Assembly: GCF_902859805.1 (NCBI RefSeq)
Contig: NZ_CADIKC010000009.1
Span: forward strand, 310,001 to 374,000
DNA: 64,000 nt
Direction of reading: 5' to 3'
Origin: Paraburkholderia sediminicola
GTDB lineage: Bacteria; Pseudomonadota; Gammaproteobacteria; Burkholderiales; Burkholderiaceae
Both the position numbers and the translations under genes were made by a program. The notes beneath the pieces were generated by a model. That model was not told where the DNA came from, ran no database searches, and worked only from the letters and a program-made list of their open reading frames with translations. How positions within the stretch are numbered: the stretch's first letter is position 1; the number at the start of each line of letters is the position of its first letter. Shown here one piece after another: positions 45,191 through 63,503 of the stretch.

Positions 45191-45328
45191 ATGACTTCGT
45201 CGTACCGCAGTAAGCCATAGTTAGCTGTTCGGCCTATGCCATCCAGATGACTATCGGTGTTGATCCCGTCCCTTTAGCCTCGCAGGTAGGGCGTGCTTGT
45301 TCAGCGCGCGTACATGCGAGGAAATACG

Positions 45329-45628
45329 ATGCGGGTCATTTCAAAGAAGGCTTTGCTGGACTTCATAAAGAGACATCCGGAGGCGCGCAGTGCGTTGTTG
45401 ACGTGGTACTCACTGGCGCAGGCTTGCCTCGCGTATGGCTATAACGACCTGAAGCAGACGTTCGCGGGCGCGGACTACGTGCCGCCGCAATACACTGTTT
45501 TCAATGTGGGCGGCAACCGGTTCAGGATCATCGCGGCGATTCACTACAACAGGCAGTCGTTGTTCGTTCGTCACGTATTGACGCATACGGAGTACGACCT
45601 TTGGACGAGGAAGAATCTAAACTCATGA
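45329..45628 (+). CDS. higB: HigB-type mRNA interferase toxin
   Basis: Small basic toxin of 99 residues of the HigB family, which cuts mRNA on the ribosome. The family core is visible: ALLDFIKRHPEARSALLTWY near the start, VFNVGGNRFRIIAAIHY in the middle, and FVRHVLTHTEYD at the end with the usual catalytic-region His residues. The ATG at 45329 has GCGAGGAAA upstream. The stop overlaps the antitoxin start (ATGA), giving toxin-first, antitoxin-second order, which is characteristic of HigBA. Confidence 0.9.
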   Translation: MRVISKKALLDFIKRHPEARSALLTWYSLAQACLAYGYNDLKQTFAGADYVPPQYTVFNVGGNRFRIIAAIHYNRQSLFVRHVLTHTEYDLWTRKNLNS

Positions 45629-46047
45629 ATGCCGATCGCCTTCCGGGAGCCTTTCCCGACATCGCTCAAATCTGGGCCGCCTTGCAAACCCAGTTGCCGA
45701 TCACGCCCATTCGCAACGAGCAGGACTATCAGAAGATGGTGCGGCTCGCCAACGCGCTCGCCGATCATCTGAACGGTAACGAGGAGGATCCGCTGGCCGA
45801 TCTGTTTGCGATCGTCACGGACCTGATCGAAAGCTGGGAAGTGAACAACGTGACGATCCCGAAAGCGGAGCCGCGCGAGGTGTTGCGGCATCTGCTGGAA
45901 ACGCACGGGCTCAAGCAGAAGGACCTGATCGGTATCGCGTCGCCCACCGTGGTGAGCGATATTCTCGCGGGCCGGCGCGCCATCAGCAAAAAGGTGGCGA
46001 AGGCGCTGGCCGTGCGTTTTCATACCGACGTCAGCGCGTTTCTGTAA
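45625..46047 (+). CDS. higA: HigA-type antitoxin with helix-turn-helix
   Basis: Antitoxin of 140 residues. The N-terminal part (1-80) is acidic and should bind the toxin. The C-terminal XRE-type helix-turn-helix (about 90-135) reads LLETHGLKQKDLIGIASPTVVSDILAGRRAISK. It neutralises HigB and represses the operon through palindromes such as those at 45152-45190. The ATG at 45625 overlaps the toxin stop by 4 nt; the in-frame TTG at 45601 is unlikely. Confidence 0.9.
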   Translation: MNADRLPGAFPDIAQIWAALQTQLPITPIRNEQDYQKMVRLANALADHLNGNEEDPLADLFAIVTDLIESWEVNNVTIPKAEPREVLRHLLETHGLKQKDLIGIASPTVVSDILAGRRAISKKVAKALAVRFHTDVSAFL

Positions 46048-48549: not shown

Positions 48550-49743
48550 TTATCTGGACAACTGCACCGTGTAGAACAAGGTCTGCAGGGTCGGCGTGAT
48601 CTGTTCGAGTGCGCGGTTAAAGCGTGCTGCATTCGAGACCTGCACGTACACCACATCCTTCGGCTGTAATTCGAATTTGGTCATCAGCATCAAGGCGTCG
48701 ACCTGCGTCATGTCGAGCTGATAGACGTCAGGCGTGAGCGTCTTGTCGGCGCCGCGTACCACGTACACAAAGCGCGGGTCGCCGGTTTTGACGTCGAGGC
48801 TGCCGGCGCCGGTGAGCGCATCGGCGAGCGTCAGGCGGCCACGGTTCATCGGCAGCGAGGTCGGCTTGTTCACTTCGCCGAGTACGAAAACGCGGCTGTT
48901 CGAACGGTCCGGCACGTCGATGATGTCGCCGTCTTTCAGCAGTACGTTCTGTTGCGGATCGCCGGTTTCGAGCAGTGCGGCGACATCGACCGTATAACGC
49001 TTGCCGTTGCGGGTCACGCCGACGTTCTGCAGATCCGCATCGGGCAGCGCACCGCCCGCGCGATTGATCGCATCGAGCACGGTGAGCGGCGCATCGGTAA
49101 TCGCTTCGGAGGAGGGCGTGCGCAGATTGCCGGTCACCTGCACCGACTGGCTGTTGAAACCCGAGACGCGCACGTCGAGCTGAGGATTACGAATCGTCCT
49201 CGCGAGGCCCCGCGTGAGCGAATCCTGAACCTGCTGGGCGGTCATGCCGAGCACCTTGATGCGGCCCACGCGCGGGAAAAAGATCGTGCCGTTGTTGGCG
49301 ACGCGCACGGTCAGCCCGCCTTCGCCGCCGCCTGACAGCGTCGGTGAGACCGGTGTCGCCCCCTGTGTCTGCGTAGGACCCGGCGAAGGTGTTGCGCTGC
49401 CGCTGACGCTCGGCAGTGGCGGCACGCCGCCAAGTGTGCCGCCGGTCAGTTCCGGGTGATCCCAGACGATGATGTTCAACTGGTCGCCGATGCCGAGCCG
49501 GTAGTCGTAAGCTCCGCGCGTCTGAGGCGTGAGGCAGGACAACGGGCAGGCGGCCGGTACCGCGGCTGCGCGTTGCTGGCGAAAATAGCCGACGTCGATC
49601 GTGTGCACCGGAAACTTCTCGGCAGTTTGCTCAGGCGGAGCGGGCTGCTCCAGACGTTTGGTGTCCAGATAGGGGCCCGGCGCCAATGAACAGGCGCATA
49701 GCGTTGTGGCCGCGAGCCCTGCGGCAATTGTTTTGATAGTCAT
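48550..49743 (-). CDS. Outer-membrane polysaccharide export lipoprotein (Wza/BceE type)
   Basis: Export lipoprotein of 397 residues that forms the outer-membrane channel for exopolysaccharide. The signal peptide ends in the lipobox TTLCAC. The Poly_export domain begins near YDYRLGIGDQLNIIVWDHPELT, followed by repeated SLBB domains (VQVTGNLRTPSSEAI; VFVLGEVNKPTSLP). A Pro/Ser/Gly-rich insert (about residues 110-145) within the first domain is unusual. The ATG at 49743 is the obvious start. It is 23 nt upstream of the kinase gene, its functional partner. Confidence 0.92.
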   Translation of the reverse strand: MTIKTIAAGLAATTLCACSLAPGPYLDTKRLEQPAPPEQTAEKFPVHTIDVGYFRQQRAAAVPAACPLSCLTPQTRGAYDYRLGIGDQLNIIVWDHPELTGGTLGGVPPLPSVSGSATPSPGPTQTQGATPVSPTLSGGGEGGLTVRVANNGTIFFPRVGRIKVLGMTAQQVQDSLTRGLARTIRNPQLDVRVSGFNSQSVQVTGNLRTPSSEAITDAPLTVLDAINRAGGALPDADLQNVGVTRNGKRYTVDVAALLETGDPQQNVLLKDGDIIDVPDRSNSRVFVLGEVNKPTSLPMNRGRLTLADALTGAGSLDVKTGDPRFVYVVRGADKTLTPDVYQLDMTQVDALMLMTKFELQPKDVVYVQVSNAARFNRALEQITPTLQTLFYTVQLSR

Positions 49744-49780
49744 TTTGGTGGTCCCTCGCGTGAAGCAGCGCACTGTTCGG

Positions 49781-50734
49781 TCAGCGCGCCGCCTCCTGCC
49801 ATGCCCCGCGCATTGCGCGTAAACCCACTCTCCATTTGCGAAGCGCGAGTGCCACGCCGCCGCGCTCGAATGCCAGCGACAATGCGCGCAGGAACCCCGG
49901 GTCCGCACGATTGCCGATCAGCGTCGAGTAAACGACGAACGCCCATCGGCCGGGTGGCGTCAGGTATTCGCACATGATGAGTCGGAGATTGAATGACGCG
50001 TTATAGAAAGCGGCGTCGTTAAATGTGAAGCGCTGGTCTTCGTCGCTGCGCTGGGCCGGAAAGTGATCGACCAGTAGTGACGGGTCGTAGATCAAAGTCC
50101 AGCCGCGCCGTTTTACGTCGAGGCTGAAGCCCATTTCGCAATGCACCTGCGCGCCGGTGCCGCGCAAGCGCTCATCAAAACGCACGGTGCCGATCGCCTC
50201 GCGGCGAAACGCCATGTTGACGCCCTTGAGCACCTGCACTTCACGTGCGGCGCCATGGCCAATGTGATGATTCCCGATAGTGCGGCCATACCAGCGCACG
50301 AGGCCGACGCACGGCTTCTGCCCCTGCAGGATGCCATTGCGTTCATGCACGATGTCGCGTCCGCCAAGGCCGCCGAGTGCCGGATCGTTTCCGAACGCGC
50401 GGGCGATCCGCGCGATCCAGTCGGAATGCGGCGCGGCGTCGTCGTCGGTAAAGCAGAGCACGTCGCCGCTGGCGCTGTCGATGCCGAGGTTGTAGGCGGC
50501 GACCACGCCCGGCTTGTGCACCAGCACGATCCAGCGGCGCGGGTCCGGCCGGTTCGCTTCGCTCGTGCGCAGCCAGTCGAGCGTCGCGTAGTCGTCGTGA
50601 CGTGCGATCACGATCACTTCGTCGGCGCGGCGCTCCTGTGCGTCGAGCGCCGCGAGGCAGCGTGCGAGATCGGCGGTGCGCCGGTACGTCGGCACGATCA
50701 CGGAGACTTTCAGGGACGGTTTCCGGAATGGCAT
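49781..50734 (-). CDS. Glycosyltransferase family 2
   Basis: GT-A fold glycosyltransferase of 317 residues. The N-terminal nucleotide-binding region is KVSVIVPTYRRTADLARCL, with the DXD-like metal site in CFTDDDAAPHSDW. The middle carries NMAFRREAIGTVRFDERLRG, typical of rhamnosyl- and galactosyltransferase-like members. It has no membrane helix. It starts 2 nt after the stop of the initiating transferase gene, which suggests it adds one of the next sugars of the repeat unit. The sugar is unknown. Confidence 0.85.
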   Translation of the reverse strand: MPFRKPSLKVSVIVPTYRRTADLARCLAALDAQERRADEVIVIARHDDYATLDWLRTSEANRPDPRRWIVLVHKPGVVAAYNLGIDSASGDVLCFTDDDAAPHSDWIARIARAFGNDPALGGLGGRDIVHERNGILQGQKPCVGLVRWYGRTIGNHHIGHGAAREVQVLKGVNMAFRREAIGTVRFDERLRGTGAQVHCEMGFSLDVKRRGWTLIYDPSLLVDHFPAQRSDEDQRFTFNDAAFYNASFNLRLIMCEYLTPPGRWAFVVYSTLIGNRADPGFLRALSLAFERGGVALALRKWRVGLRAMRGAWQEAAR

Positions 50735-50736
50735 GA

Positions 50737-52122
50737 TCAGAATGCGTTTCGCCCGACGAAACCCTTGAAAATCGTGATGAACACGATCTTCATGTCGAAC
50801 CAGAACGACCAGTTATGGATGTAGAAGAGATCGAACTTCACGCGCGTCTCCATCTTTTCAACCTTGGTGGTGGCGCCGCGATAGCCGTTCACCTGTGCCC
50901 AGCCGGTAATGCCCGGCTTGATCCGGTAGCGGTTCATATAGCCGTACACCTGATCCTTGTAGAGATCGTCGTGTTCGACCGCATGAGGACGCGGGCCGAC
51001 CACCGACATCTGGCCGAGCAGCACGTTCAGGAATTGCGGCAGTTCGTCGAGACTGGTGCGGCGCATGAAGCCGCCGAGTTTCGTGATGCGCGCGTCGTTG
51101 CGCGCGGCCTGTGTGACCTGGCCGTGCGCTTCGTGGTGCACCGTCATCGAGCGGAACTTGTAGATCGCGAACGGCTGGCCATCCACGCCTTTACGGGTCT
51201 GGCGGAAGAACACCGGTCCGGGCGAGCTCAGCTTGATGCCGATCGCGAGCGCGACAAACACGGGCGCGAGCGCGAGCAGCGCGGCCGCGGCGAACAGGCG
51301 GTCGAAGATCAGCTTGGGCCACATCTGCGGCGAGGAGATAGGCGTGGCGTTCAGGTTGAGCGTCGGTAAACCGACGACATCGACTAGCGCGTGGTTGAAC
51401 AGCGAGAGGCTGCGGACATCGGGGATGAAGCGCAGGTTCACGAAGTCATGTTTGAACGTACGCGTGAAGCGATAGATTGTGTGTTCTTCCGAGAGCGGCA
51501 GAGCGAGCCACACTTCGTTCACATGCTCTTCGCGCACCTTGGCGGCGAACGCTTTCAGATCGGTCAGCACCGGCAGGCGATTGAGACGCGCGCCGTACGT
51601 GCCGGCCGCTTCGATACTGGTATCGAAGACGCAGACGGGCTTGAAGCCGGCTTGCGGCGCACGGTCCAGATGCGCGAGCAGCGTGCGCGAAAAACCGGGT
51701 GCGCCGACGATCGCGACCGTGCGGAAGTTCATGCCGCGCCGGCGCACGCTGCGCAGGCCAACATGCACGAGGCACTTGGTAAGAATGATCAGGGCGCCGG
51801 AGATCAGCGTCGAGTAGCCGAACCACAGCCGCGAAACGGCATCCATGCGGTGCAAGGTGAAGGCCAGCACGAGGGCGGTGGCGACCACCACCAGCCACGC
51901 GGCGGCAACTCTCAACAGCATCGAAGGCAGCGCCTTGCCGCGCCACGTTTCATAGACGCCGAAGCCGGGAAACATCAGCAGCACGAGCACGCAGTTGAAG
52001 GCGATCAGCAGGCGCTCGGTGTCCGACAACGCAATCGGCGTTGAAAAGCGCATCCCGTGAGCGAGCAGCCCGCCCGCAATCACAAAGAGTGCGTCGAGAC
52101 ATCGCGCAGTATTCCTGAACAT
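50737..52122 (-). CDS. Undecaprenyl-phosphate hexose-1-phosphate transferase (WcaJ/BceB type)
   Basis: Polyprenyl-phosphate glycosyl-1-phosphate transferase of 461 residues that starts repeat-unit assembly by loading a sugar phosphate, probably glucose, on undecaprenyl phosphate. Four N-terminal helices (about 10-125) and a Rossmann-like CoA-binding-type region ([16 protein letters not shown]) precede the catalytic domain, which has its own membrane hairpin ([20 protein letters not shown]). Motifs [36 protein letters not shown] and [15 protein letters not shown] are complete. It is the first structural gene of the leftward operon. Confidence 0.93.
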
Positions 52123-52167: not shown

Positions 52168-52902
52168 TTACTCGACAGTTTCAGCCTGACGCAGACGCGG
52201 CAGCAGGCGGTCGAATTCCCGCTTGACGAGGCCGTAGCATTCGCAGGCGCGCGCTTCGAGACCTTTGCGGTCGAGGATCCTGATGTGGCCGCGGCTGTGA
52301 TGAATCAGGCCTTCGTCGTGCAACTTGCCGGCTGCTTCGGTGATGCCTTCGCGGCGCACGCCGAGCATGTCAGCGATCAGTTGCTGGGTAACCGTCAGAT
52401 CATTCGATGCCACACGGTCCACTTCGATCAGCAGCCAGCGGCACAGTTGCTTGTTCAGCGCATGGTGGCGATTGCAGGCGGCGGTCTGCGCGACCTGCGT
52501 GAGGAGGGCGTGCATGTACAGCAGCATCAGGCGGCGCAGGAAGTCCGAGCGTGCGAATTGCTGCTTGAGCGCTTGTGCGCTCATCCGGTAAGCGAAGCCG
52601 GCGCATTGCACCTGCACGCGGTTCGGCATGGTTTCGCCGCCCGTGAGCACCGGCACGCCGGTCATGCCTTCGCGGCCGACCGCGGCGATTTCGACCGAGC
52701 TGCCGTCTTCCATCGTCGAGAGCATCGAGATGATTGCAGTGGTCGGGAAGTAGACGTGATGGATCCGTTGACCTGAGTCGCACAGCAGTTGCTCGGTGCG
52801 CAGATGAACCAGTTCGAGATGAGGGGCAAGTGCTTGCCATTCGTGGGACGGCAACGCGCCGAGCAAATGGTTGCCGTGCAGATCTGATTGAAGTGTCAAC
52901 AT
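52168..52902 (-). CDS. Crp/Fnr-family transcriptional regulator
   Basis: Regulator of 244 residues with an N-terminal cyclic-nucleotide-type beta-barrel (about 15-130, HHVYFPTTAIISMLSTMEDGSSVE) and a C-terminal winged helix (about 165-225, LTVTQQLIADMLGVRREGITEAAGKL). The barrel lacks the classical cAMP-binding arginine signature and the Fnr cysteines, so the ligand is unclear. The ATG at 52902 has GAGGA upstream. It is 45 nt before the initiating transferase gene in the same direction, so it may be cotranscribed with and regulate the exopolysaccharide operon. Some Burkholderia Crp/Fnr proteins that control exopolysaccharide bind c-di-GMP; whether this one does is unknown. Confidence 0.85.
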   Translation of the reverse strand: MLTLQSDLHGNHLLGALPSHEWQALAPHLELVHLRTEQLLCDSGQRIHHVYFPTTAIISMLSTMEDGSSVEIAAVGREGMTGVPVLTGGETMPNRVQVQCAGFAYRMSAQALKQQFARSDFLRRLMLLYMHALLTQVAQTAACNRHHALNKQLCRWLLIEVDRVASNDLTVTQQLIADMLGVRREGITEAAGKLHDEGLIHHSRGHIRILDRKGLEARACECYGLVKREFDRLLPRLRQAETVE

Positions 52903-53532: not shown

Positions 53533-56157
53533 TCAACCGTAGAGGATGGCGGATATCGCATTGATCGCGCGGACTTCGCCTGCGGGCGCCAGACATGTTG
53601 CATCAGCTTTAAACGCCGCGTTAGATGCGTGCGCAACGAGTTTTTCAACGGGGACGAGCGGCACGACGCAGGGGCGGTTAGGCGGCAGATGAAACCAGTC
53701 GTGCGCGGCGCGGTAATGCGTGTCAATGATATGAACGAAGCGCGCAAAGCGCTTCGCTTCGATAATCAGTTGCCAGCCGTCGGCGCTACGCTCGACGCGC
53801 ACCGTCAGACCGAGGTCGTATCGTTCGCGGGCGCGCCGCTCCGGCAGATGAACCGCTTCTGACACGATCCTGCCGCTCGCCGGATCGCGCAGTGTCGCAA
53901 TCGTGACGTCGTGGGCGCGCGGCCCGAAGCGGTAGGCGTGCGTGAAATCGAAGAACTGGCCAAGGTGCGCTGCCGCGCCGATACGCTGCGCGCTGTGCGG
54001 CGCCAGTTCGACCGCGTGGCTGGCCGACGCGACCTTGACGCTGCCTTCGCGCAGGCAGACCAGATCCAGCTGGGCGTGCAAAGGTTCGGCACGTTCGTTC
54101 AACAGATGAATATCGAGGCCGTTGAGGCCTTCGTCGGTCATGACCATCTGGATGGGTTGCAGCGTCCGCGCGAGGCCGTGCAGGGCGCTTTTAGGCCGTC
54201 CTGTGGCGTCGATCAAGCCCCAGCCTGCGCCCGGGCGCAGATCCTGAAGCTGCCAGACCAGTGCGCCGCCGCACGTCGAGCCGGCGCGCCGCCATTCGGC
54301 GAACACGTCGCTCATCAGGTCGGCGACCACCGCGCGCGACAGATCCAGGTAGCGCTCAGGGTCTTCGTAACGCAACTGCGCCGGCTCGATGCCGTAGAGC
54401 GTCTGCAGATAATGGTCGCGTACATCGTCGAAGTCCCAGCCGGCGCCGGGGTCGCGCGGCACGGCTCGTTTCCAGCGCGGATCGTGCAGATGGATCGTGC
54501 CGAGTGCTTCGTGCAAGGTGGCGTCGTCGGGCACGTTGGCGAAGGCGAGGCATTCGGCGGCGAAGCGGACCTGCGCGCGGCGCACGTCGTCGAGCGGGCG
54601 TTGATAGGCGCCAACTCCGTAGTAGTGCGTGATGCCTTCGTTAGTCGAAAACGGCCACGCGCCACCCGAGGGCGAGTTGCTCACATACGGTACATCCGGC
54701 CGCTCGCGGGCGGCGATGGCGGGCAGCTGTTCGGTAAACAGTGGTTGCGTGCGCATCGAAGCGGGCAGGCCGAACATGGCCGCCTGCTGGTCGACTTCAC
54801 TGCCGCCGCACAACACCGCGAGCGAGGCGAAGCGCCGTGTGCGGGTCAGAAATTGCGTTGCTTCGCGCTCGATGGAAGCCGTAAAGGCGGCATCGGTCGG
54901 GTAGTCGAAATTCGCCAGCGCGAAGTCTTGCCAGATGAGGAGGCCGTACGCGTCAGCCAGTGCGTAAAACGCGTCGGACTCGTACACCATCGTGCCGCCT
55001 ACCCGCAGCATGTTCATGCCGGCATCGCGAGCGAGTGCGAAAGTGTGGCGCAGCTGAGCCTCGGTGCCGGTCAGCGTGACGAGATCCGCGCTGGTCCAGC
55101 AGGCGCCACGGCAGAACACCGCCGTGCCATTTACGCGCAATGCGAAGCCCATGCCGTCCGCGCCGCGATCCACTTCGATGCTGCGAAAGCCGACAGATCC
55201 CAATGAGTGGGATATCGCGTCTTCGTCATCAAGCTGCAACGTCAGAGGATATAGGGTGGGCTCGCCATGCGTGTGGGGCCACCAGCGTTCGGCATGCGGT
55301 ACACGCACACTGCCGGTCAGTGTATATGCATCACTCCATTGCAAAGACGAAACACAACTGCCGCAATTTAACTTTGCGACGCACGCGTCGACGTCATGCG
55401 GATGCACGAAATGTAGCGTTATCGAAACAACGCCGTCGTCGTCTTCGAGACGGCTTGTCAGATCAATCGTGTCGAAGGCGTGCGGCGCGTCGCTCAACAT
55501 TTCAATCGGCCGCCATGGACCGACGGCCTGCACCGATGGACACCATCCCGGCATATGGCCAAGCAGCGTGGTGCGCACGTTACGCAAAGTGGACGGCGTG
55601 ACAAGACGCGGCCGCCAGCGCGCGCGTGAGCGTTTGGCCGCCAGCGCCGGGGTCAGCGAGCGAAAGCACAGCGCGAGTGTCGCGCTGCCGTGCAGTTCGA
55701 TGTCGAGATCGTGCGCGACGAACATCGAATCGGACTCAATGCGTCTGATGCCGTCGATCCAGACTTCGGCGAGCGTGGCGAGGCCGTGCAGGCGCAAGCG
55801 GCGTTTGCCTGTGCCTGTCAGCGTGAGCTTGTACCAGTGGTCATCGAAGGCAAGCGGCGGCGGATTGACGGCGTCCAGCAGGCCCGCGGCACGGCGCGCG
55901 CTCGCCACCGTACCGGGCACCTGTGCGGCGAGCCAGCCCTGCGCGGGCAAGTCGGTGGGGCAGACGCATGCACCGGCCGGCGTGCTGACGCACTGCCAGC
56001 CTGTGTCGAGTTGCTGTGGCCAGAGGCCCTCAGGTGAGGCAAGCGCCGTGATAGCGCAGGCAGCGGCATCAACTTCGGCGGCCTCCGGCGTCTTGGCAAA
56101 GGTCGCCGGACGCGAGCCGCCTGCATCCGGTACCAGGTCATTCGTCAGCACATCCAC
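53533..56157 (-). CDS. Glycoside hydrolase family 2 protein, beta-mannosidase-like
   Basis: GH2-type enzyme of 874 residues with an N-terminal jelly-roll sugar-binding domain, a linking domain and a TIM barrel from about residue 340. The barrel shows FCRGACWTSADLV, GMNMLRVGGTMVYESDAFY and GLLIWQDFALANFDYP. The predicted acid/base is Glu454 (LCGGSEVDQQ) and the nucleophile Glu535 (RFAAECLAF). The family's usual RVWGGG reads RVGGTM here. There is no signal peptide, so it should act in the cytoplasm, unlike secreted polysaccharide hydrolases. It is the last gene of the carrier-protein operon, 30 nt after the DUF1839 gene. A transglycosylase or editing role is possible. Confidence 0.82.
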   Translation of the reverse strand: MDVLTNDLVPDAGGSRPATFAKTPEAAEVDAAACAITALASPEGLWPQQLDTGWQCVSTPAGACVCPTDLPAQGWLAAQVPGTVASARRAAGLLDAVNPPPLAFDDHWYKLTLTGTGKRRLRLHGLATLAEVWIDGIRRIESDSMFVAHDLDIELHGSATLALCFRSLTPALAAKRSRARWRPRLVTPSTLRNVRTTLLGHMPGWCPSVQAVGPWRPIEMLSDAPHAFDTIDLTSRLEDDDGVVSITLHFVHPHDVDACVAKLNCGSCVSSLQWSDAYTLTGSVRVPHAERWWPHTHGEPTLYPLTLQLDDEDAISHSLGSVGFRSIEVDRGADGMGFALRVNGTAVFCRGACWTSADLVTLTGTEAQLRHTFALARDAGMNMLRVGGTMVYESDAFYALADAYGLLIWQDFALANFDYPTDAAFTASIEREATQFLTRTRRFASLAVLCGGSEVDQQAAMFGLPASMRTQPLFTEQLPAIAARERPDVPYVSNSPSGGAWPFSTNEGITHYYGVGAYQRPLDDVRRAQVRFAAECLAFANVPDDATLHEALGTIHLHDPRWKRAVPRDPGAGWDFDDVRDHYLQTLYGIEPAQLRYEDPERYLDLSRAVVADLMSDVFAEWRRAGSTCGGALVWQLQDLRPGAGWGLIDATGRPKSALHGLARTLQPIQMVMTDEGLNGLDIHLLNERAEPLHAQLDLVCLREGSVKVASASHAVELAPHSAQRIGAAAHLGQFFDFTHAYRFGPRAHDVTIATLRDPASGRIVSEAVHLPERRARERYDLGLTVRVERSADGWQLIIEAKRFARFVHIIDTHYRAAHDWFHLPPNRPCVVPLVPVEKLVAHASNAAFKADATCLAPAGEVRAINAISAILYG

Positions 56158-56187
56158 GGCGATTTCCTGAAGCTCGAAACGAGCTCG

Positions 56188-57249
56188 TTACAGCACAAGC
56201 GCGGCAAGTGGCGGCAGCGTCTTTTCATAGGCGCTTTCGAGAACGTCGAAGCAGTCTTCACACGAATCGCGGCGTCCGCGCGTGATCGCCCGCACGAGCC
56301 TGAACTGCATCACCATCGACTCCGACGCGATACGCTGCGCCGCCTCCGGGATCGATGCCGGCATGTCGAAACCTTGCGCGGAAAGCCACAACAGATACTT
56401 CGAAAGAAATTCGAAGTTCGCGCCGAGCTGCCGCATCAGGTTGAACGAGTAGGGATGAAAGAACGCCTCGCCGCGTTCGAGCAGCGTATCGAGATGTGCG
56501 GGAAACGCGGCGCGCCACTGCGAGATCGGATTGGTCAGCGGCCGCCTGGCTAGATGCGCGCACAACAATTCCGCCGAGGCTTCGGCGAGCGCCGTGCCTT
56601 CCAGCGCGGGCCGCGCCTGCTTGGCGAATTCAACATACGGAAACAGCAGATCCGGCTGCTGCGCGAATTGCGGCAGCTTGCGGAACACGCCGTCGTAGTC
56701 TTCACCGTCCAGCAGGTGATAGCCGGTGTTGTGGAAATAGCCGAGGCGGCGCGCCGGCGGATCGATGAAGTCGATCCCCACCGTGGTTTTCGGATGCTCA
56801 CGCCGATACGACGTGGCGCGTGTATTCGGCAGATAATAGCCGTCCACTTCCACCAGCACGGTGTGGCCGCGCAAAGTCTGCGCGAGCACGCGGGCTTCGA
56901 GCGAGTCGTAGATCGCCAGTTCCTGCACCTGGGTGCCGTACAGCCGCTCGAGGTCTTCGAGCGGAAATTTGAAGAAGGTGAACTGATCGCCTTCGAAGTC
57001 CTGCGTGACGGTAAAGCCGAACGCGGCGCGCGGATCGAGTCCGAAGCCGTGCAGCAGTTCGATCCACAGGTCGACGTAGCAGTTGGTCTCCTGCCAGACG
57101 CGCTCGCCCTGATGCAGCGCGTGCGGCGCATGCTGGCGCAGCGGCGTGGCAGGCGCGCTCGTGCTGCCCTGAGCCGGCAGGTCGAGCCGGCGGGGCAACG
57201 CAAAGGCGGACGAGACGCCCTTCGGCGCGGGGATCAGGGATGGATTCAT
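56188..57249 (-). CDS. DUF1839 family protein
   Basis: Cytoplasmic protein of 353 residues matching DUF1839, of unknown function. Conserved stretches include ERVWQETNCYVDLWIELLHG, DFEGDQFTFFKFPLEDLE, VLVEVDGYYLPNT and YFHNTGYHLLDGEDYDG. The acidic and aromatic clusters and the single early Cys in ETNCYVD resemble a catalytic pocket and recall peptidase or transferase folds, but no class can be assigned. Its start overlaps the stop of the amino acid:[carrier protein] ligase by 4 nt. I expect it to use the aminoacylated carrier protein, for example as a transferase. That is inference from gene order. Confidence 0.8.
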   Translation of the reverse strand: MNPSLIPAPKGVSSAFALPRRLDLPAQGSTSAPATPLRQHAPHALHQGERVWQETNCYVDLWIELLHGFGLDPRAAFGFTVTQDFEGDQFTFFKFPLEDLERLYGTQVQELAIYDSLEARVLAQTLRGHTVLVEVDGYYLPNTRATSYRREHPKTTVGIDFIDPPARRLGYFHNTGYHLLDGEDYDGVFRKLPQFAQQPDLLFPYVEFAKQARPALEGTALAEASAELLCAHLARRPLTNPISQWRAAFPAHLDTLLERGEAFFHPYSFNLMRQLGANFEFLSKYLLWLSAQGFDMPASIPEAAQRIASESMVMQFRLVRAITRGRRDSCEDCFDVLESAYEKTLPPLAALVL

Positions 57250-58301
57250 GCGCTGTCTCCAGCACCCTGTTCCACCACCGTGGATGCCGACTGTATGCCT
57301 TGCGCCACGCGCGCCTCCGTGTCGCCCCACAGCAGCGCGCGCACGTCGTCCGGCCATGCGTTGACGTCGAGCCCGTGATGGCGGAATAGCGCCAGCGTGA
57401 TGCGCTCCATGCCAAAGCCGACGCAGCCCGTGTGCGCTACCGCACCGTCTTCGCACTCGATCTTCCAGATCGCGCCGAAGTGCTCCATGTGATAGTTGAA
57501 CGAGAGGCAGGCGGTCTTGCCGCGCGGATCGGCGACCGGAATCAGCAGTTCGAACTTGAGCGCCTGGGCACGCTGACTATCGGCGACGATCTTGCCGCCG
57601 CGGCCGAAGAACGGATCGTTGGCGAGATCCACTTCCACCGGCAGTTGCAGCAGCGTAATCAGCAGCGAGCCGCGTTCGACCCACATCTGCCGGAATGCCA
57701 TCACCTGTTCGGCGCTGCCGAGGCGTACGTATTCGCGCTGCCGGAACATCTGCATACGGCCGGGATCGAGCGAAGGTTCATGGCGGAAGCAATACGACAG
57801 CACGTCGATAGTGCGGCCGTCTGCGGGCAGCGGGCCGCGCCGCGCCATCACCGGATAGATCGGATAGCAGGCGGCCGGCGTGAGGACCACGCGGGTCGGT
57901 TTCTGCTGCGCCATCCATTCGTCGCTGCGATCGTCGTCGCTTTCGGTCATCGCGTCGTCGAGTGCGCGCAACAGACGCTGGTGGCCCATGTCGTTGCCGC
58001 AGAACGAGTGGATCGTGCCGGCGAGGTTCGGGAAGCTCTTCAGATACTCGCTGTCTTCGAAATCGGTGCGGCGCATGGCGGGCGGAAAGCGCAGCACTTC
58101 GGGCTGCTGGTCCGCGCCGAGATGCGTGATCGCTACGTTCAGACGGTCCACCACGTCTTCGAAAACCTGGCTGCGGCCGTACAGGCCGTTTTCACCGGTA
58201 TCGATCAGGAGGCCGGCGGCCAGCAGTTCGTCGCGGAAAGTCGGCGCAGTGGATTCCGGCGCTGCAGTGGCCAGCGCGGCGGTATCGGTCATCGTGTTCA
58301 T
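57246..58301 (-). CDS. Amino acid:[acyl carrier protein] ligase (seryl-tRNA synthetase-like)
   Basis: Class II aminoacyl-tRNA synthetase homologue of 351 residues that lacks a tRNA-binding domain. Such enzymes from Bradyrhizobium and Agrobacterium load glycine or alanine onto the phosphopantetheine arm of a small carrier protein. Motif 2 (SYCFRHE... FRQREYVRLG) and motif 3 (GFGMERITLALF) are present. The zinc ligands of the family appear as Cys145, Glu190 and Cys293, with the spacing I recall for the characterised enzyme. The ATG at 58301 follows the dehydrogenase-like gene by 1 nt. Its carrier protein is encoded two genes upstream. The amino acid used here is unknown. Confidence 0.9.
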   Translation of the reverse strand: MNTMTDTAALATAAPESTAPTFRDELLAAGLLIDTGENGLYGRSQVFEDVVDRLNVAITHLGADQQPEVLRFPPAMRRTDFEDSEYLKSFPNLAGTIHSFCGNDMGHQRLLRALDDAMTESDDDRSDEWMAQQKPTRVVLTPAACYPIYPVMARRGPLPADGRTIDVLSYCFRHEPSLDPGRMQMFRQREYVRLGSAEQVMAFRQMWVERGSLLITLLQLPVEVDLANDPFFGRGGKIVADSQRAQALKFELLIPVADPRGKTACLSFNYHMEHFGAIWKIECEDGAVAHTGCVGFGMERITLALFRHHGLDVNAWPDDVRALLWGDTEARVAQGIQSASTVVEQGAGDSA

Positions 58302-58302
58302 G

Positions 58303-59601
58303 TCAGGCTCTCCCCGGGGCGGCAGGACGTTGTGCGAGCAACAGGCTCGCCGTGTTCTGCGCAATGCGGTCGTTATTGATCATTAGCGGCGCGGAGTAAA
58401 GGTCGCGCAGATGCCGTCCCACGCTGTATTCCGTGCCGTTCTTGTAGCCCGCCATGCCGCAGATCATCAGCACTTCCTGCACGACCTGCAGCGCGGTGGT
58501 CGAGATGCTGGTCTTCAGCGTGTTCATGTCGGAAGCGAAACCGAGCATCGCCGAGAGCGGCGCGTCGGCCTGGCAGCCGCCGTGTTTCGCATGATGGGCG
58601 GTGCGCGCCGCTTCGAGCGCGACCGACAGGCGCGCCTGCATCATCTGCAGCAGGCCGACCGCTTCGGCGAGGCGCAAACCGGCCGGTGGAATCGAGCCGG
58701 GCTTCGAGCGGGCTTGCGCACGAAAGAAGGCTTTCGCGCGATTCACCGCGTCGCTGGCCACGCCGGTCCATACCGAAGCCCACAGCGTGTGCGAGACCGG
58801 CAGCATGGTCTGATCCGCGATATCGGCGAAGGGCGTCGGCAGGATCTGCTCGGCGAGACCTGTGGCGACGAGCCGGAAGCCCTCGCTGCAGGTGCCGCGC
58901 ATGCCCATCGAATCCCAGCCGCCGCGCTTTTCCAGCTGCGTTTCTTCGCGTAACGCGACGATCAGCACCTGGTCGGCCGCGGCCGACTCGGCGGTGCGGC
59001 GCGCGGTGACCAGAATGCCGTCGGCGTGCGCGCCGTATGAGATCGTCGGTGCGAGCTTTTCGATGCGAAAGCGCTGCTGGCCGTGCTCTCCATCGAGTTC
59101 GACTGAGCAGGCGCTGGTGCGCATGTTGCCGCCGATGGTTTCCTCAGAGGTCGCCGAAGCCAGCAGCCATTGATGTTCAACCAGTTGCGCGAGCAACTGC
59201 CTGTGCCATGCCGACTCGCTGCCATACGCCTCGATGCAGGCGACCTGGATCTGGTGCATCGCGTACACCATCGCAGTGGAAGCGCAGCCTTGTGCAAGCG
59301 TTTCGCAGATCGCAGCGATATCCGCGAGCGAGAGCCCTTCGCCGCCGAACGCGGCCGGCACCATCACCGACAACAACCGTTCGCGCTTGAGCGCCTCGAA
59401 TGCTTCGTGGGGAAAGCGCGCTTCGCGGTCCACCGAATCGGCGAACTGCGCGGCCACGGCGGCGCAACGCTGCGCCGCGGCGCGCCAGCCTGGTTCGGTT
59501 TCCACCGCGCTCAGCACGACGCTTGCGCTGGCAGGCTGTTCCGCAGCGGGGTCGGCGAGCGGCGCCGCCACCGCGGCCGTGTCCAGCAGCGGGGCGTTCA
59601 T
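58303..59601 (-). CDS. Acyl-CoA dehydrogenase-like flavoprotein paired with carrier protein
   Basis: Protein of 432 residues with the acyl-CoA dehydrogenase fold: LLSVMVPAAFGGEGLSLADI at the N-terminus, SATSEETIGGNM in the middle strand region and MAGYKNGTEYSVGRHLRDLY at the C-terminus. Where catabolic enzymes have the catalytic YEGT-type Glu, this reads MINNDR, as in the type-2 C-terminal group that includes flavin monooxygenases. An Ala/Pro/Ser-rich N-terminal extension of about 35 residues is present. It overlaps the carrier protein gene by 4 nt and precedes the ligase by 1 nt. Related proteins oxidise aminoacyl groups on carrier proteins, so an aminoacyl-S-carrier substrate is plausible. 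Confidence 0.83.
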   Translation of the reverse strand: MNAPLLDTAAVAAPLADPAAEQPASASVVLSAVETEPGWRAAAQRCAAVAAQFADSVDREARFPHEAFEALKRERLLSVMVPAAFGGEGLSLADIAAICETLAQGCASTAMVYAMHQIQVACIEAYGSESAWHRQLLAQLVEHQWLLASATSEETIGGNMRTSACSVELDGEHGQQRFRIEKLAPTISYGAHADGILVTARRTAESAAADQVLIVALREETQLEKRGGWDSMGMRGTCSEGFRLVATGLAEQILPTPFADIADQTMLPVSHTLWASVWTGVASDAVNRAKAFFRAQARSKPGSIPPAGLRLAEAVGLLQMMQARLSVALEAARTAHHAKHGGCQADAPLSAMLGFASDMNTLKTSISTTALQVVQEVLMICGMAGYKNGTEYSVGRHLRDLYSAPLMINNDRIAQNTASLLLAQRPAAPGRA

Positions 59602-59849
59602 GCTGCCGCCTTCGCCTGTTGCAACTCGGTGACCGCGGCGGCCATTGAATCGATGCTCGAGAACAGCCGGCGCGTCAGCATGCGGTCCGGAATCTCGATG
59701 CCGAATTCGTCTTCGATGGCCAGCATCAGATGCACCGTCGCGAGCGAGGACAGGCCCGCTGCGTATAGATCGGCGTCGTCGGCCAGGGTATCGGGCGAAA
59801 CGTCAAGACGTGCCGATTCGGAAAGGATGCGTCGCAATGCGCTTTTCAT
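59598..59849 (-). CDS. Acyl carrier protein-like carrier for amino acids
   Basis: Four-helix carrier protein of 83 residues. The phosphopantetheine site is Ser35 in AAGLSSLATV, where the usual Asp of the DSL motif is Ser. Helix 2/3 (VHLMLAIEDEFGIEIPD) is otherwise typical. It is first in an operon with the dehydrogenase-like flavoprotein and the amino acid:[carrier protein] ligase, so it is the likely partner loaded by that ligase rather than a fatty-acid ACP. The ATG at 59849 gives a normal carrier length; the longer frame from 59966 adds basic sequence that lacks the fold. Confidence 0.88.
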   Translation of the reverse strand: MKSALRRILSESARLDVSPDTLADDADLYAAGLSSLATVHLMLAIEDEFGIEIPDRMLTRRLFSSIDSMAAAVTELQQAKAAA

Positions 59850-60158
59850 AGTGATGTGCCCCCTTGGTGGGTCGAAATAGTTCTTAACTGTCGCTTGACT
59901 CTGTTGTTTGACTCTGTGGCTTAACTCGCACTTGAAGGGTGAAGGGCCCGTCGTTCTCCGGCTCAAGCGCCGCCGTGCTCCGTTGCCTCGTATTTAAGGA
60001 TCGCGAAAGGCTAGCGTCAGTGCGATTCCGCACGGAACCACGCGGTTTGCGGACGTACCGTGTAGCCATGCAAGACAACGGGGCCTGCCTGTTGAGTTGG
60101 CCCATCGAAGGCTGACCCATCGAAGCCTGCGTCGTTAAACACATCGCTAGGGAACGTG
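59850..60158. other. Divergent promoter region of the carrier-protein and GNAT operons
   Basis: A 309-nt gap. It has two copies of TTGACTCTGT 13 nt apart (59895-59904, 59908-59917) and two copies of CCCATCGAAG 15 nt apart near 60101-60125. Either pair could be a regulator site or tandem slippage. No clear -35/-10 set was assigned. Confidence 0.4.
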
Positions 60159-60692
60159 ATGAACTGGAAAACGCTGGAATTCGAACAGCTCACCGCGCGG
60201 GAGTTGTATCTGATATTGCGGGCGCGCAGTGCGGTCTTCGTGGTCGAACAATCGCATGTGTATCTGGACGCCGATGGCCACGACGAAACGTCGTTGCATG
60301 TCTTCGCGGTCGAGGACATGTCGCGGCCCATGCCGATCCTGGCGTATGCCCGTCTGCAACCAGGCGACGCCGAAGATCCGGAAATCGTCATCGACAAGGT
60401 GCTGACCAGCCCGCTGCGGCGTGGCGATGGCACCGCCGGATTGCTGATCGAACGGGTGCTGCATGCGATCGCCGAACACTGGCCGGGCCGTGCCGCGCAC
60501 GTCACGGCGCCGATCGGGTTGCGCGGCTTTTACGAGCAATTCGGCTTTCGCAAGACGGAAGGCCCGTATCTCGAACACGGCGAGCCGTTTATCGGGCTCA
60601 CCCGTCAGCCGCGTGGCGGCCAGCCGCTGTTCGGCAGTCTGCGCCGTGAACGCGATGGGGTTGCGTTCGTGAACACGTTCGAGTTGCTGTGA
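60159..60692 (+). CDS. GNAT-family N-acetyltransferase, ElaA-like
   Basis: GNAT protein of 177 residues resembling ElaA. The start LTARELYLILRARSAVFVVEQ, the strand LHVFAVED, and the acetyl-CoA loop region RRGDGTAGLLIERVL (motif A) are visible, then GLRGFYEQFGFRKTEGPYLEHG. The activity of ElaA-type enzymes is not firmly known. The ATG at 60159 is preferred to the preceding GTG. It is first in the rightward half of the exopolysaccharide locus, so it could acetylate a sugar amine or an aminoacyl group. Confidence 0.82.
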   Translation: MNWKTLEFEQLTARELYLILRARSAVFVVEQSHVYLDADGHDETSLHVFAVEDMSRPMPILAYARLQPGDAEDPEIVIDKVLTSPLRRGDGTAGLLIERVLHAIAEHWPGRAAHVTAPIGLRGFYEQFGFRKTEGPYLEHGEPFIGLTRQPRGGQPLFGSLRRERDGVAFVNTFELL

Positions 60693-60777
60693 CGATGCGC
60701 ACGTCTGGCAAGCGACACCAGGAGACGACCGCAAGCCGTGCGATACGACGGACGGCCGGGCGCGTCGCGTGGCTGTC

Positions 60778-62313
60778 ATGGCCGGGGGTTCAGCCATGAT
60801 GAGCATACCTTCCACGATGGTGCGCCCGCCGCCCGCGCGGCCGGACTCGCCTGCCGCAGCGCCGTCGCGCGCGGCTGCGACGGTGCGCGGCGGCATACGC
60901 CATCCCACGTATCTGCCGATCGCGCTGTTCGCCATTACGCTGTTGCTGGTCGTCCTGCACCAGGGGCGGCTGGTCGAAATGTTCTACCCGGTTGGGTCCT
61001 TCCTGATTGCGCTGCGCTTCTACCGGCGCTCACCGGCGCACTACCTGGGTTTCGTGTGCTGGTTGTTCTTTCTCTCGCCGGAGGTGCGGCGGCTCGCGGA
61101 CTTCGTGAACGGATCGTTCAATCCGAAAAGCCCGGTGATGATCGCCCCGATGCTCGCGGTCGCGCTGTCCGGATGCGCGCTCATCACGAATTTCCGTGCG
61201 CTCGGGCAGCGTCGCACCATGCCGCTCGTGCTGATCGTGCTCGCGCTGTTCTATTCGTATCTGGTCGGCATGGTGCAGGTGGGACCGGCTGCGGCGACGT
61301 TCACGCTGGTGAACTGGCTGTTTCCGGTGCTGGTGGCGTTTCGTCTCGTCGTCACCTGGCAGGACTATCCGGACTATCACCGCGTGCTGCTCAAGACGTT
61401 CGTCTACGGCGGTCTGGTGATGGGCCTCTATGGCGTGATCGAGTATCTGTCGCCGCCGCCGTGGGACATCTTCTGGCTGATTGCATCGCAGATGGAATCT
61501 GAAGGGCACCCGGTGCCGTTCGGGATGCGCGTAAGCAGCACGATGAACTCTTCAGGCCCGTTCTCGCAGACGATCATGGCCGTGCTGCTGATGTCGCTCG
61601 CTGCCCGTGGCAGGATGCGCGTCGCCACCGGACTGATGGGCATCCCGGCGTTGATGTTCACCTCGGTGCGCAGTGCGTGGGGCGGTCTCGCGATTGGCCT
61701 CGTGTACCCGCTCACGATGCTGGACGGTCGCAGCCGGCTGCGGCTGATCGGCGGGGTACTGGGCTTTGCGATGCTGTGCGCGCCGCTTGCGATGGTCGAT
61801 CAGGTCTCCGAAAACTTCATGCAGCGATTCAACACAATCCAGGATCTCGGTCATGACAATAGCTACCAGGTCCGCGCGGAGCTCTACAAGCAGTTCATCT
61901 CGGTGGCGTTGACCGACATCGCCGGGCAGGGACTCGGTATGACCGGGCTCGGCACCAAACTGTCGAGCGACGATTCGCTTCAGTTGACCGTGGTCTTCGA
62001 TAGCGGTCTGCTGGAAGTGCCGTTCGTGATGGGATGGCCGGGTACGCTGCTGTACACGACCGGCATTGTGATGCTGCTGTGGCGGGCCTTCCGGGCAAGC
62101 CGACAGCGCGCGAGAGACCGCTTTGCGATTTCCGGCGTTGGCGTCGCGATCGCGATGTTCGCGATGATGGTGTTCGTCAATACATTGATCGGGCTGCCGG
62201 GGATGTTCTTTTTCGTCGGCGTGATATTGCCGGTCATCGGCCTGCGTCACGCGCGGGAGGCACACGCTGCCGGGCCGGCTGCGTCGGTGCGACTCGCGGA
62301 GGAAGGGCGATGA
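60778..62313 (+). CDS. Wzy/O-antigen polymerase-like membrane protein
   Basis: Polytopic membrane protein of about 511 residues with ten or more predicted helices and a large periplasmic loop (about 215-285 and around 340), the layout of Wzy polymerases and O-antigen ligases. A helix pair LMGIPALMFTSVRSAWGGLAIGLV includes the Arg typical of the family. It has a Pro/Ala-rich N-terminus of about 40 residues. Starts at 60769 (GTG), 60778 and 60796 are all possible. It polymerises repeat units made by the neighbouring glycosyltransferases. Its stop overlaps the next start (ATGA). Confidence 0.75.
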   Translation: MAGGSAMMSIPSTMVRPPPARPDSPAAAPSRAAATVRGGIRHPTYLPIALFAITLLLVVLHQGRLVEMFYPVGSFLIALRFYRRSPAHYLGFVCWLFFLSPEVRRLADFVNGSFNPKSPVMIAPMLAVALSGCALITNFRALGQRRTMPLVLIVLALFYSYLVGMVQVGPAAATFTLVNWLFPVLVAFRLVVTWQDYPDYHRVLLKTFVYGGLVMGLYGVIEYLSPPPWDIFWLIASQMESEGHPVPFGMRVSSTMNSSGPFSQTIMAVLLMSLAARGRMRVATGLMGIPALMFTSVRSAWGGLAIGLVYPLTMLDGRSRLRLIGGVLGFAMLCAPLAMVDQVSENFMQRFNTIQDLGHDNSYQVRAELYKQFISVALTDIAGQGLGMTGLGTKLSSDDSLQLTVVFDSGLLEVPFVMGWPGTLLYTTGIVMLLWRAFRASRQRARDRFAISGVGVAIAMFAMMVFVNTLIGLPGMFFFVGVILPVIGLRHAREAHAAGPAASVRLAEEGR

Positions 62314-63503
62314 GCGGCAACGCAATGCGCATCCTGATCGTGACGCACCAGGTGACGAAAAATGACGGCCAGGGGCGCGTCAACTACGAAATTGCCCGCG
62401 CGGCGCTTGCGGCCGGGCATGAGGTGACGTTGCTCGCGTCGCGGGCTGCGCCGGAGCTGCTGAATCATCCACGCGTGCGGTTCGTGAAGATCGGTGAGAG
62501 CCGGCTGCCGACGCGCCTGATCCAGTATCAGGTTTTCGCGTGGCGTAGCGGTGCGTGGATCCGCGCGCACCGAAAAGCGTTCGATGTGATCCATGTGAAT
62601 GGTTTTATTGCATGGGCGCGCGCCGACGTGAACGCGGTTCACTTCGTACACGACGGCTGGTACCGCTGCGGCTTCTATCCGTTCCGTTTCTTCCATGGCC
62701 CGTATCACGCGTATCAGGTCGTCTACACAAGGCTCAATGCGTGGTGTGAGAAGTGGGCGTTCCGGCATGCCGAGGTCGTCGTGCCGGTGTCGGAGAAAGT
62801 CGGCACTGAGGTGTGCTCGCTCGGTATCGACACAGCGCGGCTTCAGGTGATCTACAACGGCGTCGATACCGATGAATTTGCGCCCGGCGCGTCGCAGCGC
62901 GAGCATTTCGGCTTACCGCAGGCGCCGTTCATGCTGTTGTTCGCCGGCGATCTGCGTGTGTCGCGCAAGAATCTCGACACGGTGTTGCGGGCACTCACCG
63001 CGACACCCACGCATGTGCATCTGGTGGTCGCCGGGATTCTGCGCAACAGTCCGTATCCCGCGCTGGCTGCCTCGCTCGGACTTGAGGAACGTGTGCACTT
63101 TACTGATCTGGTCACGGATATGCCCGCGCTGATGCGTTCGGTCGATGCCTTTGTGTTTCCGTCGCGTTACGAACCAATGGGGCTGGTATTGCTCGAGGCG
63201 CTGGCGGCGGCGTTACCGGTTGTCACCGTACGGACGGCGGGCGGGGCCGAAGTCATTGCAGCCGACTGCGGCATCGTACTCGAGCATCCGGACGATAGCG
63301 TCGCGTTAGCCGCGGCGATCATGCGTCTTGCCGACGATCGCGCGCATGCGCGGCAGATGGGACTCGCCGCGCGCGAACTGGCCAGAACGCTCAGTTGGCA
63401 GGCAATGGCGAGCCGCTACCTGTCACTCTATGAACGGCTCGCCGCACGACGTGCGGTGAGCGCAATGGCGACTCCACGTGCCACGGTATCGGTGGAATCA
63501 TGA
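62310..63503 (+). CDS. Glycosyltransferase family 4
   Basis: GT-B glycosyltransferase of 397 residues. It begins with MRILIVTHQVTKNDGQGRVNYE, has VNGFIAWARADVNAVHFVHDG, and the donor domain with VIYNGVDTDEF, LLFAGDLRVSRKNLDTVL and YEPMGLVLLEALAAALPVV (EX7E). It is tightly coupled to the polymerase gene upstream (4-nt overlap) and to the next glycosyltransferase gene (4-nt overlap), so it belongs to the exopolysaccharide unit. The sugar it transfers is unknown. Confidence 0.88.
   Translation: MSGNAMRILIVTHQVTKNDGQGRVNYEIARAALAAGHEVTLLASRAAPELLNHPRVRFVKIGESRLPTRLIQYQVFAWRSGAWIRAHRKAFDVIHVNGFIAWARADVNAVHFVHDGWYRCGFYPFRFFHGPYHAYQVVYTRLNAWCEKWAFRHAEVVVPVSEKVGTEVCSLGIDTARLQVIYNGVDTDEFAPGASQREHFGLPQAPFMLLFAGDLRVSRKNLDTVLRALTATPTHVHLVVAGILRNSPYPALAASLGLEERVHFTDLVTDMPALMRSVDAFVFPSRYEPMGLVLLEALAAALPVVTVRTAGGAEVIAADCGIVLEHPDDSVALAAAIMRLADDRAHARQMGLAARELARTLSWQAMASRYLSLYERLAARRAVSAMATPRATVSVES

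Follow-up and report, generated by a model that had tools for sequence, protein, structure and literature searches.

Carrier-protein amino acid ligases have been known since 2010 and, to our knowledge, no settled pathway has been described for them, Bll0957 of Bradyrhizobium included. One such ligase is encoded in a 64,000-nt stretch of Paraburkholderia sediminicola (GCF_902859805.1, NZ_CADIKC010000009.1, positions 310,001-374,000, forward strand; hereafter, the window), within an operon that also encodes a carrier protein, an acyl-CoA dehydrogenase-like (ACAD-like) flavoprotein, a DUF1839 protein and a GH2 enzyme (Table 1). Which pathway does the ligase serve there? We consider it somewhat probable that the operon is a carrier-protein glycan-aminoacylation module, in which DUF1839 is predicted to be a Cys-dependent aminoacyl-carrier-protein:sugar condensing enzyme (Cys57, Thr143, His173). 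The initial annotation had described the five genes as a tightly coupled operon flanked by exopolysaccharide (EPS) genes, and this description holds: the families are as described, all five genes lie on the minus strand, the carrier protein and flavoprotein genes overlap by 4 nt, a 1-nt gap precedes the ligase, the ligase and DUF1839 genes overlap by 4 nt, and 30 nt separate DUF1839 from GH2. A WbaP-type transferase, a GT2 glycosyltransferase, Wza and Wzc lie on one side; a Wzy-like protein and a GT4 glycosyltransferase lie on the other. The annotation passed over a CRP/FNR-type gene situated between those of GH2 and the WbaP-type transferase.

DUF1839 and its operon partners

Structure comparison showed that DUF1839 has the fold of CcbD over approximately 270-290 residues. 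CcbD and LmbD are lincosamide condensing enzymes that resemble DUF1839 in fold, in the Cys and His residues and in having a carrier-protein partner, and the acceptor of CcbD is an amino sugar; they differ in showing only about 14% identity to DUF1839 and in serving antibiotic pathways. CtaG and AziU2/U3 are similar by fold, and BtrH by class; AziU2/U3 work on a substrate attached to the carrier and are not known to carry out a condensation. Among 97 aligned DUF1839 sequences, Cys57 is found in 94, Thr143, at the third triad position, in 95, and His173 in all 97. The spacing between Cys57 and His173 is 116, versus 117 in CtaG, the residues being compared by spacing and not by superposition. The triad has been given as C(T/S)H (PMC10318531). 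A DUF1839 profile search of the PDB returned a single match, a 145-aa "cysteine protease" chain, with an E value of 0.5.

We also aligned the window protein with 84 others from 60 genomes and recorded the state of Cys57. A copy without Cys57 occurs in 25 genomes, 22 of which also hold a copy with it. Per genome, Cys57 was present in 57/57 genomes in which the ligase was seen and in 0/3 of those without it (Fisher's test, p = 2.9e-5, relatedness ignored). The latter three represent three genera and have no adjacent ligase: there is no PRK07080 match in G834 and G751 and only a distant one in G774, and the sole DUF1839 of each lacks Cys57. Because Cys57 is kept with the ligase and lost without it, the DUF1839 active site appears to serve the ligase branch. 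DUF1839 without the cysteine presumably has another use.

Genomes with two copies fall into distinct patterns. In genus g4, which by likeness is kin to Cupriavidus metallidurans (L131), the in-operon copy lacks Cys57 and Thr143 in 9/10 two-copy genomes, and the second copy of those nine keeps both residues and is encoded, in most cases, a short distance away within that EPS locus. Only G859 departs from this in g4, and G823 (genus g483) and L131 conform to the pattern. In 12 genomes of the Caballeronia-like genus g3, the intact operon is located elsewhere, and a Cys-less DUF1839 gene is still at the EPS locus, by CRP, GNAT and WbaP; in two other g3 genomes the operon is still at that locus. 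Loci L176, L199, L208, L210, L214, L223 and others are examples of a Cys-less gene in this setting after the catalytic operon moved.

The ligase score exceeds the curated PRK07080 cut-off of 357 bits, and its best PDB relatives are ligase 1 (292 bits) and Bll0957 (286 bits, residues 15-325). Cys145, Glu175 and Cys293 are kept in 94/94 aligned ligases, and correspond to what we take to be the metal-ligand positions of Bll0957, so that these conserved residues are common to both. Given the amino acid specificity that we assume for Bll0957, glycine is the likely substrate of the window ligase. Ser35 of the carrier protein is invariant (77/77 aligned). In the flavoprotein, Ile or Val (92/92) occupies the position where the MCAD-type catalytic Glu would align, as presumed from the alignment and the motif; thus, this Glu appears to be absent. 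Its structural model is equally close to dehydrogenases and to DszC/TdsC-type monooxygenases; we predict that it oxidises the carrier-bound amino acid, by either chemistry. Glu454 and Glu535 of the GH2 enzyme are kept in 89/89 aligned sequences, and inspection of its sequence by eye revealed no export signal.

Operon conservation and exopolysaccharide linkage

Among records of Paraburkholderia, Burkholderia and Caballeronia, a scan with the ligase yielded 78 loci. All five genes are present in 75/78 loci, with order and strand kept in 74/78; the four others are two loci at contig ends (L058 and L079) and two symbiont loci with fragmented copies (L077 and L078). Outside the family, 12 of 13 loci have the five genes in order, and the remaining one (L125) starts at a contig end and has no carrier protein gene. 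Because the arrangement is kept in both sets, the gene order and strand are beyond chance, and the cassette is an old one. DUF1839 is present in 16/398 genomes sampled across the phylum, and PRK07080 matches above the cut-off occur in 4/369 genomes sampled across the class. At four loci (L108, L109, L111 and L112), EpmA-like, EpmB-like and EF-P genes lie upstream of the operon (by Pfam in L108, by clustering in the others); the EpmA-like gene represents another use of a synthetase paralogue near the operon.

In a sample of 150 genomes of the window's family, 60 have DUF1839, at 85 loci. A PF02397 initiating transferase is encoded no more than 20 kb away from at least 54 of these 85 loci, which represent at least 44 of the 60 genomes, versus an expectation of approximately 2% for a random position. 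Two or more further EPS genes of the window type were found in the flanks of 62/78 loci, CRP in 62/78 and GNAT in 60/78.

The same set of genes is found in what is probably a known EPS region. In Burkholderia cenocepacia (L128), the order is WbaP, two CRP genes, the five genes, a sigma-54 activator and GNAT. We take this to be the Bep region between berA (BCAM1349) and berB (BCAM1342), as these genes are designated in the excerpt of PMC9684580 used here; the gene count suggests that BCAM1343-1347 are the five genes. The Bep locus and the homologous bec locus of B. pseudomallei resemble the window in gene set and differ from it in gene order, and both have a published role in biofilms. The window has a CRP regulator that is probably BerA-like and adjoins EPS genes, as expected of a Bep/Bec-type locus, and its GNAT is the probable counterpart of Bcam1341. 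According to an excerpt of PMC5507470, a strain with a transposon in becG, which is listed with an "acyl-CoA dehydrogenase domain", formed less biofilm than the wild type (optical density 0.84 vs 1.25) and had smooth colonies, and all but 3 of the 18 bec genes were recovered in the biofilm screen.

The EPS locus continues beyond the window on the same contig (L161), with glycosyltransferases, an NHL-repeat protein, Wzx, AT3, an SGNH-like protein (recognised by eye), an MBOAT protein and a protein of two alpha/beta domains in tandem. The AT3 acyltransferase, SGNH-like and MBOAT genes are consecutive (L161:10014-13749), to the right of the window. Between Wzc and a glycosyltransferase (window 45293-46047, plus strand) are two small open reading frames that, on visual inspection, resemble a toxin-antitoxin pair of the HigBA type; the second has no Pfam match.

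Table 1. Genes of the operon and of the surrounding EPS locus (window positions unless marked L161)
Feature	Position	Strand	Details
Carrier protein, 83 aa, phosphopantetheine Ser35	59598..59849	-	start ATG; PP-binding 8.7e-11; PRK07081 126 bits
ACAD-like flavoprotein	58303..59601	-	acyl-CoA dehydrogenase N domain
Amino acid:[carrier protein] ligase, class II synthetase-like	57246..58301	-	start ATG; PRK07080 533.7 bits
DUF1839, C57/T143/H173	56188..57249	-	DUF1839 family match 443.8 bits
GH2 beta-mannosidase-like enzyme	53533..56157	-	start GTG; GH2 family match
CRP/FNR-type regulator, between GH2 and WbaP	52168..52902	-	48% identity to CRP adjoining WbaP in B. cenocepacia
EPS initiating sugar-phosphate transferase, WbaP type	50737..52122	-	Bac_transf 225 bits
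GT2 glycosyltransferase	49781..50734	-	family match
Wza-type export protein	48550..49749	-	Poly_export, SLBB
Wzc-type co-polymerase/kinase	46139..48526	-	WZC_N, GNVR, Wzz
GNAT, ElaA-like, divergent from operon	60156..60692	+	present in 60/78 related loci
Wzy-like polymerase	60769..62313	+	Wzy_C 25.6 bits, below Pfam cut-off
GT4 glycosyltransferase	62304..63503	+	family match
Tandem protein (TANDEM), 630 aa, two alpha/beta domains	L161:13866-15758		~16 kb from operon, same EPS locus

The tandem protein and operon variants

The tandem protein (TANDEM) is related to hydr1_PEP and hydr2_PEP (TIGR03100 and TIGR03101) of exosortase-A systems without being a member of either, with 72 and 78 bits versus cut-offs of 168 and 203. 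It is present in 59/60 genomes with DUF1839 versus 5/90 without (p = 1.4e-34, relatedness ignored, two weak matches omitted), within 30 kb of DUF1839 in 45/60 genomes, and in the fetched stretch of 10/13 distant loci. In two of the latter (L108:14414-17698 and L111:2456-5737), a Wzx-like flippase and the TANDEM domains share one reading frame of approximately 1094 aa. The second domain has a nucleophile-elbow Cys (Cys399) in 58/59 sequences, Asp524 in 56/59 and His557 in 59/59; the first has Arg at the elbow in 53/59. Since Cys-nucleophile alpha/beta enzymes include polyhydroxyalkanoate (PHA) synthase and dienelactone hydrolase, acyl transfer by TANDEM is plausible. At loci L173, L179 and L180, the carrier protein, flavoprotein and TANDEM persist after loss of the ligase, GH2 and the DUF1839 cysteine.

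A similar arrangement exists in EPS-type loci of ligase_PEP_1 (TIGR03098), of which we examined 15 of the 19 genomes with an over-cut-off match, around that ligase. The carrier protein gene, then hydr2-like, then hydr1-like genes are found together in 7/15 loci, and the elbows are those of TANDEM (Cys in 8/8 hydr1-like proteins and Arg in 7/7 hydr2-like proteins). These loci differ in having an AMP-forming ligase and separate hydr1 and hydr2 proteins, and none of the 15 gave a match to the ligase, ACAD, DUF1839 or GH2 probes.

Other operons hold TANDEM in reduced settings. L232 and L233 contain carrier protein, ACAD, ligase and TANDEM genes without DUF1839 and GH2. In the window's own genus, L236 (7513-11308) combines a carrier protein and TANDEM with an enzyme for amino acid adenylation that stands alone (TIGR01733, 346 bits versus a cut-off of 317). 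Wzc and a GDP-mannose dehydratase are encoded nearby, and that genome has no PRK07080 match. In L234 and L235, TANDEM lies between two ligase genes, surrounded by glycosyltransferases and Wzx, and neither a carrier protein nor a flavoprotein was recognised. From the variants L232-L236, it follows that the shared core consists of TANDEM and an acid activated on a carrier, to which DUF1839 and GH2 add a further layer.

These data raise another explanation, which we regard as unlikely, although the best placed of the alternatives, namely, that TANDEM rather than DUF1839 moves the carrier-bound group to the glycan, and that DUF1839 and GH2 handle some other intermediate, e.g., a sugar-amino acid building block. 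The operons of L232, L233 and L236, the seven TIGR03098 loci in which the DUF1839 probe has no match, and the TANDEM-Wzx fusion all favour it. Against it are the association of Cys57 with the ligase and the CcbD fold of DUF1839, and 15/60 genomes have no TANDEM within 30 kb of DUF1839.

Proposed route, rivals and meaning

For the glycan-aminoacylation module, we propose the following steps: (i) the ligase would adenylate a small amino acid and load it on the carrier protein; (ii) the flavoprotein would oxidise the tethered aminoacyl group, by oxygenation or imine formation; (iii) Cys57 of DUF1839 would take the acyl group and pass it to a sugar amino or hydroxyl group, as CcbD does with an amino sugar, a step suggested by the fold, the active site and the co-loss with the ligase; (iv) TANDEM, with its Cys nucleophile, would probably carry out or finish the transfer, with the lipid-linked repeat unit as acceptor, ahead of flipping by Wzx; and (v) GH2 may trim a beta-linked sugar off a cytoplasmic intermediate, which is the weakest step. 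The product would be an EPS, or another surface glycan, with an amino-acid-derived group, and a BerA-like CRP regulator is encoded alongside.

A small secreted sugar-amino acid metabolite, similar to lincosamide or butirosin, is an improbable product; the EPS placement would then reflect shared regulation or sugar supply. It is compatible with the structural relatives of DUF1839, which belong to antibiotic pathways (AziU among them), and with operons that lie apart from EPS genes in Caballeronia-like and several distant genomes. Against it are the enrichment near initiating transferases, the Cys-less DUF1839 that remains at the EPS locus where the operon moved, the Wzx fusion and the becG phenotype.

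The Dlt system of D-alanylation likewise charges a carrier protein with an amino acid destined for a surface polymer, and the window's locus contains MBOAT and SGNH-like genes; its ligase is not homologous, the window ligase being class II synthetase-like and not of the DltA AMP-binding type. A Dlt-like route, in which the MBOAT-SGNH pair would use the charged carrier protein as donor and attach the aminoacyl group to the polymer as an ester, on the periplasmic side, is very improbable. It is favoured by the L161 MBOAT, which matches DltB with 175 bits and adjoins the SGNH-like protein. Against it, this score is well short of the DltB cut-off of 375, MBOAT-SGNH pairs commonly O-acetylate EPS, a phmmer probe with the MBOAT matched 0/123 loci (a one-sequence probe misses distant kin, and many loci had 10-kb flanks only), and the bep gene table in the excerpt of PMC3584217 names no MBOAT.

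Several observations weigh against the glycan-aminoacylation module as we propose it. The three ligase-less genomes are few, and related genomes are not independent; GH2 was lost in the same three, so that Cys57 tracks GH2 nearly as well (G783, with Cys57 and no GH2 seen, is the only case apart), and the carrier protein and flavoprotein persist in them. The third triad residue is Glu in CcbD and mostly Thr in DUF1839. As L232-L235 carry the ligase and TANDEM without DUF1839 and GH2, DUF1839 is not the sole possible transferase; the two Wzx fusions, 91% identical, come from close relatives and count as a single event. The becG insertion may be polar, and becF, whose position makes it the probable carrier-protein gene, was not recovered in the biofilm screen despite its presence in the library (PMC5507470, excerpt). 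Alkali removes esters and leaves amides. The Bep polymer of B. cenocepacia H111, extracted in 0.3 M NaOH and read in NaOD, has a Gal-Glc-Gal-Man repeat without an amino sugar, and the excerpt of PMC7084887 does not mention an amino acid; therefore, H111 would require either an ester that alkali removes or a different acceptor.

The linkage to EPS genes is also incomplete. The initial annotation suggested a check for constant linkage to Wzy/Wza/Wzc, and such constancy was not borne out: the intact operon is apart from the EPS locus in the 12 g3 genomes, and no glycosyltransferase, Wzx or Wzz gene was found among the neighbours tested at 8/13 distant loci, which are mostly housekeeping and transport genes, with AT3 in L125. 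Among the matches listed, 0/13 distant loci lie within 20 kb of PF02397, and five (L108, L111, L113, L114 and L118) have polysaccharide genes (glycosyltransferase, Wzx, Wzz-like, sugar-transfer ATP-grasp). The annotation had named operons commonly away from polysaccharide genes as an argument against itself; because of these g3 genomes and eight distant loci, that argument applies in part. Its proposal that the activated amino acid is passed to a sugar is supported indirectly, by the CcbD fold, the association of Cys57 with the ligase and the EPS linkage.

This idea is not new: a note added in proof in 2010 (PMC2922099) already put it forward as a prediction, for an StRS-paralogue neighbourhood with a carrier protein, a redox enzyme, a conserved ORF (Atu2574, which we infer to be DUF1839), a glycosidase and liposaccharide genes. 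In the excerpt used here, it is a one-paragraph prediction that contains neither the structural match nor the covariation of active-site residues, and mentions no tandem partner, no kinship with exosortase-A systems and no placement in Bep/Bec. To it, the present study adds evidence from structure, genome comparison and locus context, together with the partner protein TANDEM and the caveat about alkali.

More tentatively, the operon may belong to a modular system for glycan aminoacylation that is widespread in Proteobacteria and would be the cytoplasmic equivalent of Dlt. In this system, a carrier protein with interchangeable activators (a synthetase-like ligase, a stand-alone adenylation enzyme, or an AMP-ligase in exosortase-A-type loci, a label taken from TIGR family names), a CcbD-like enzyme and an Arg/Cys alpha/beta pair would decorate lipid-linked EPS units before Wzx flipping, and base-labile esters would have been missed in alkali-prepared polymers. 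If the glycan-aminoacylation reading is right, amino acid:[carrier protein] ligases feed surface polysaccharides, DUF1839 gains a reaction, and the "hydrolase 1/2" pair of exosortase-A-type loci is likely to be an acyltransferase and its partner. Biofilm polymers extracted in alkali may then lack a native group that influences their charge and the properties of the matrix.

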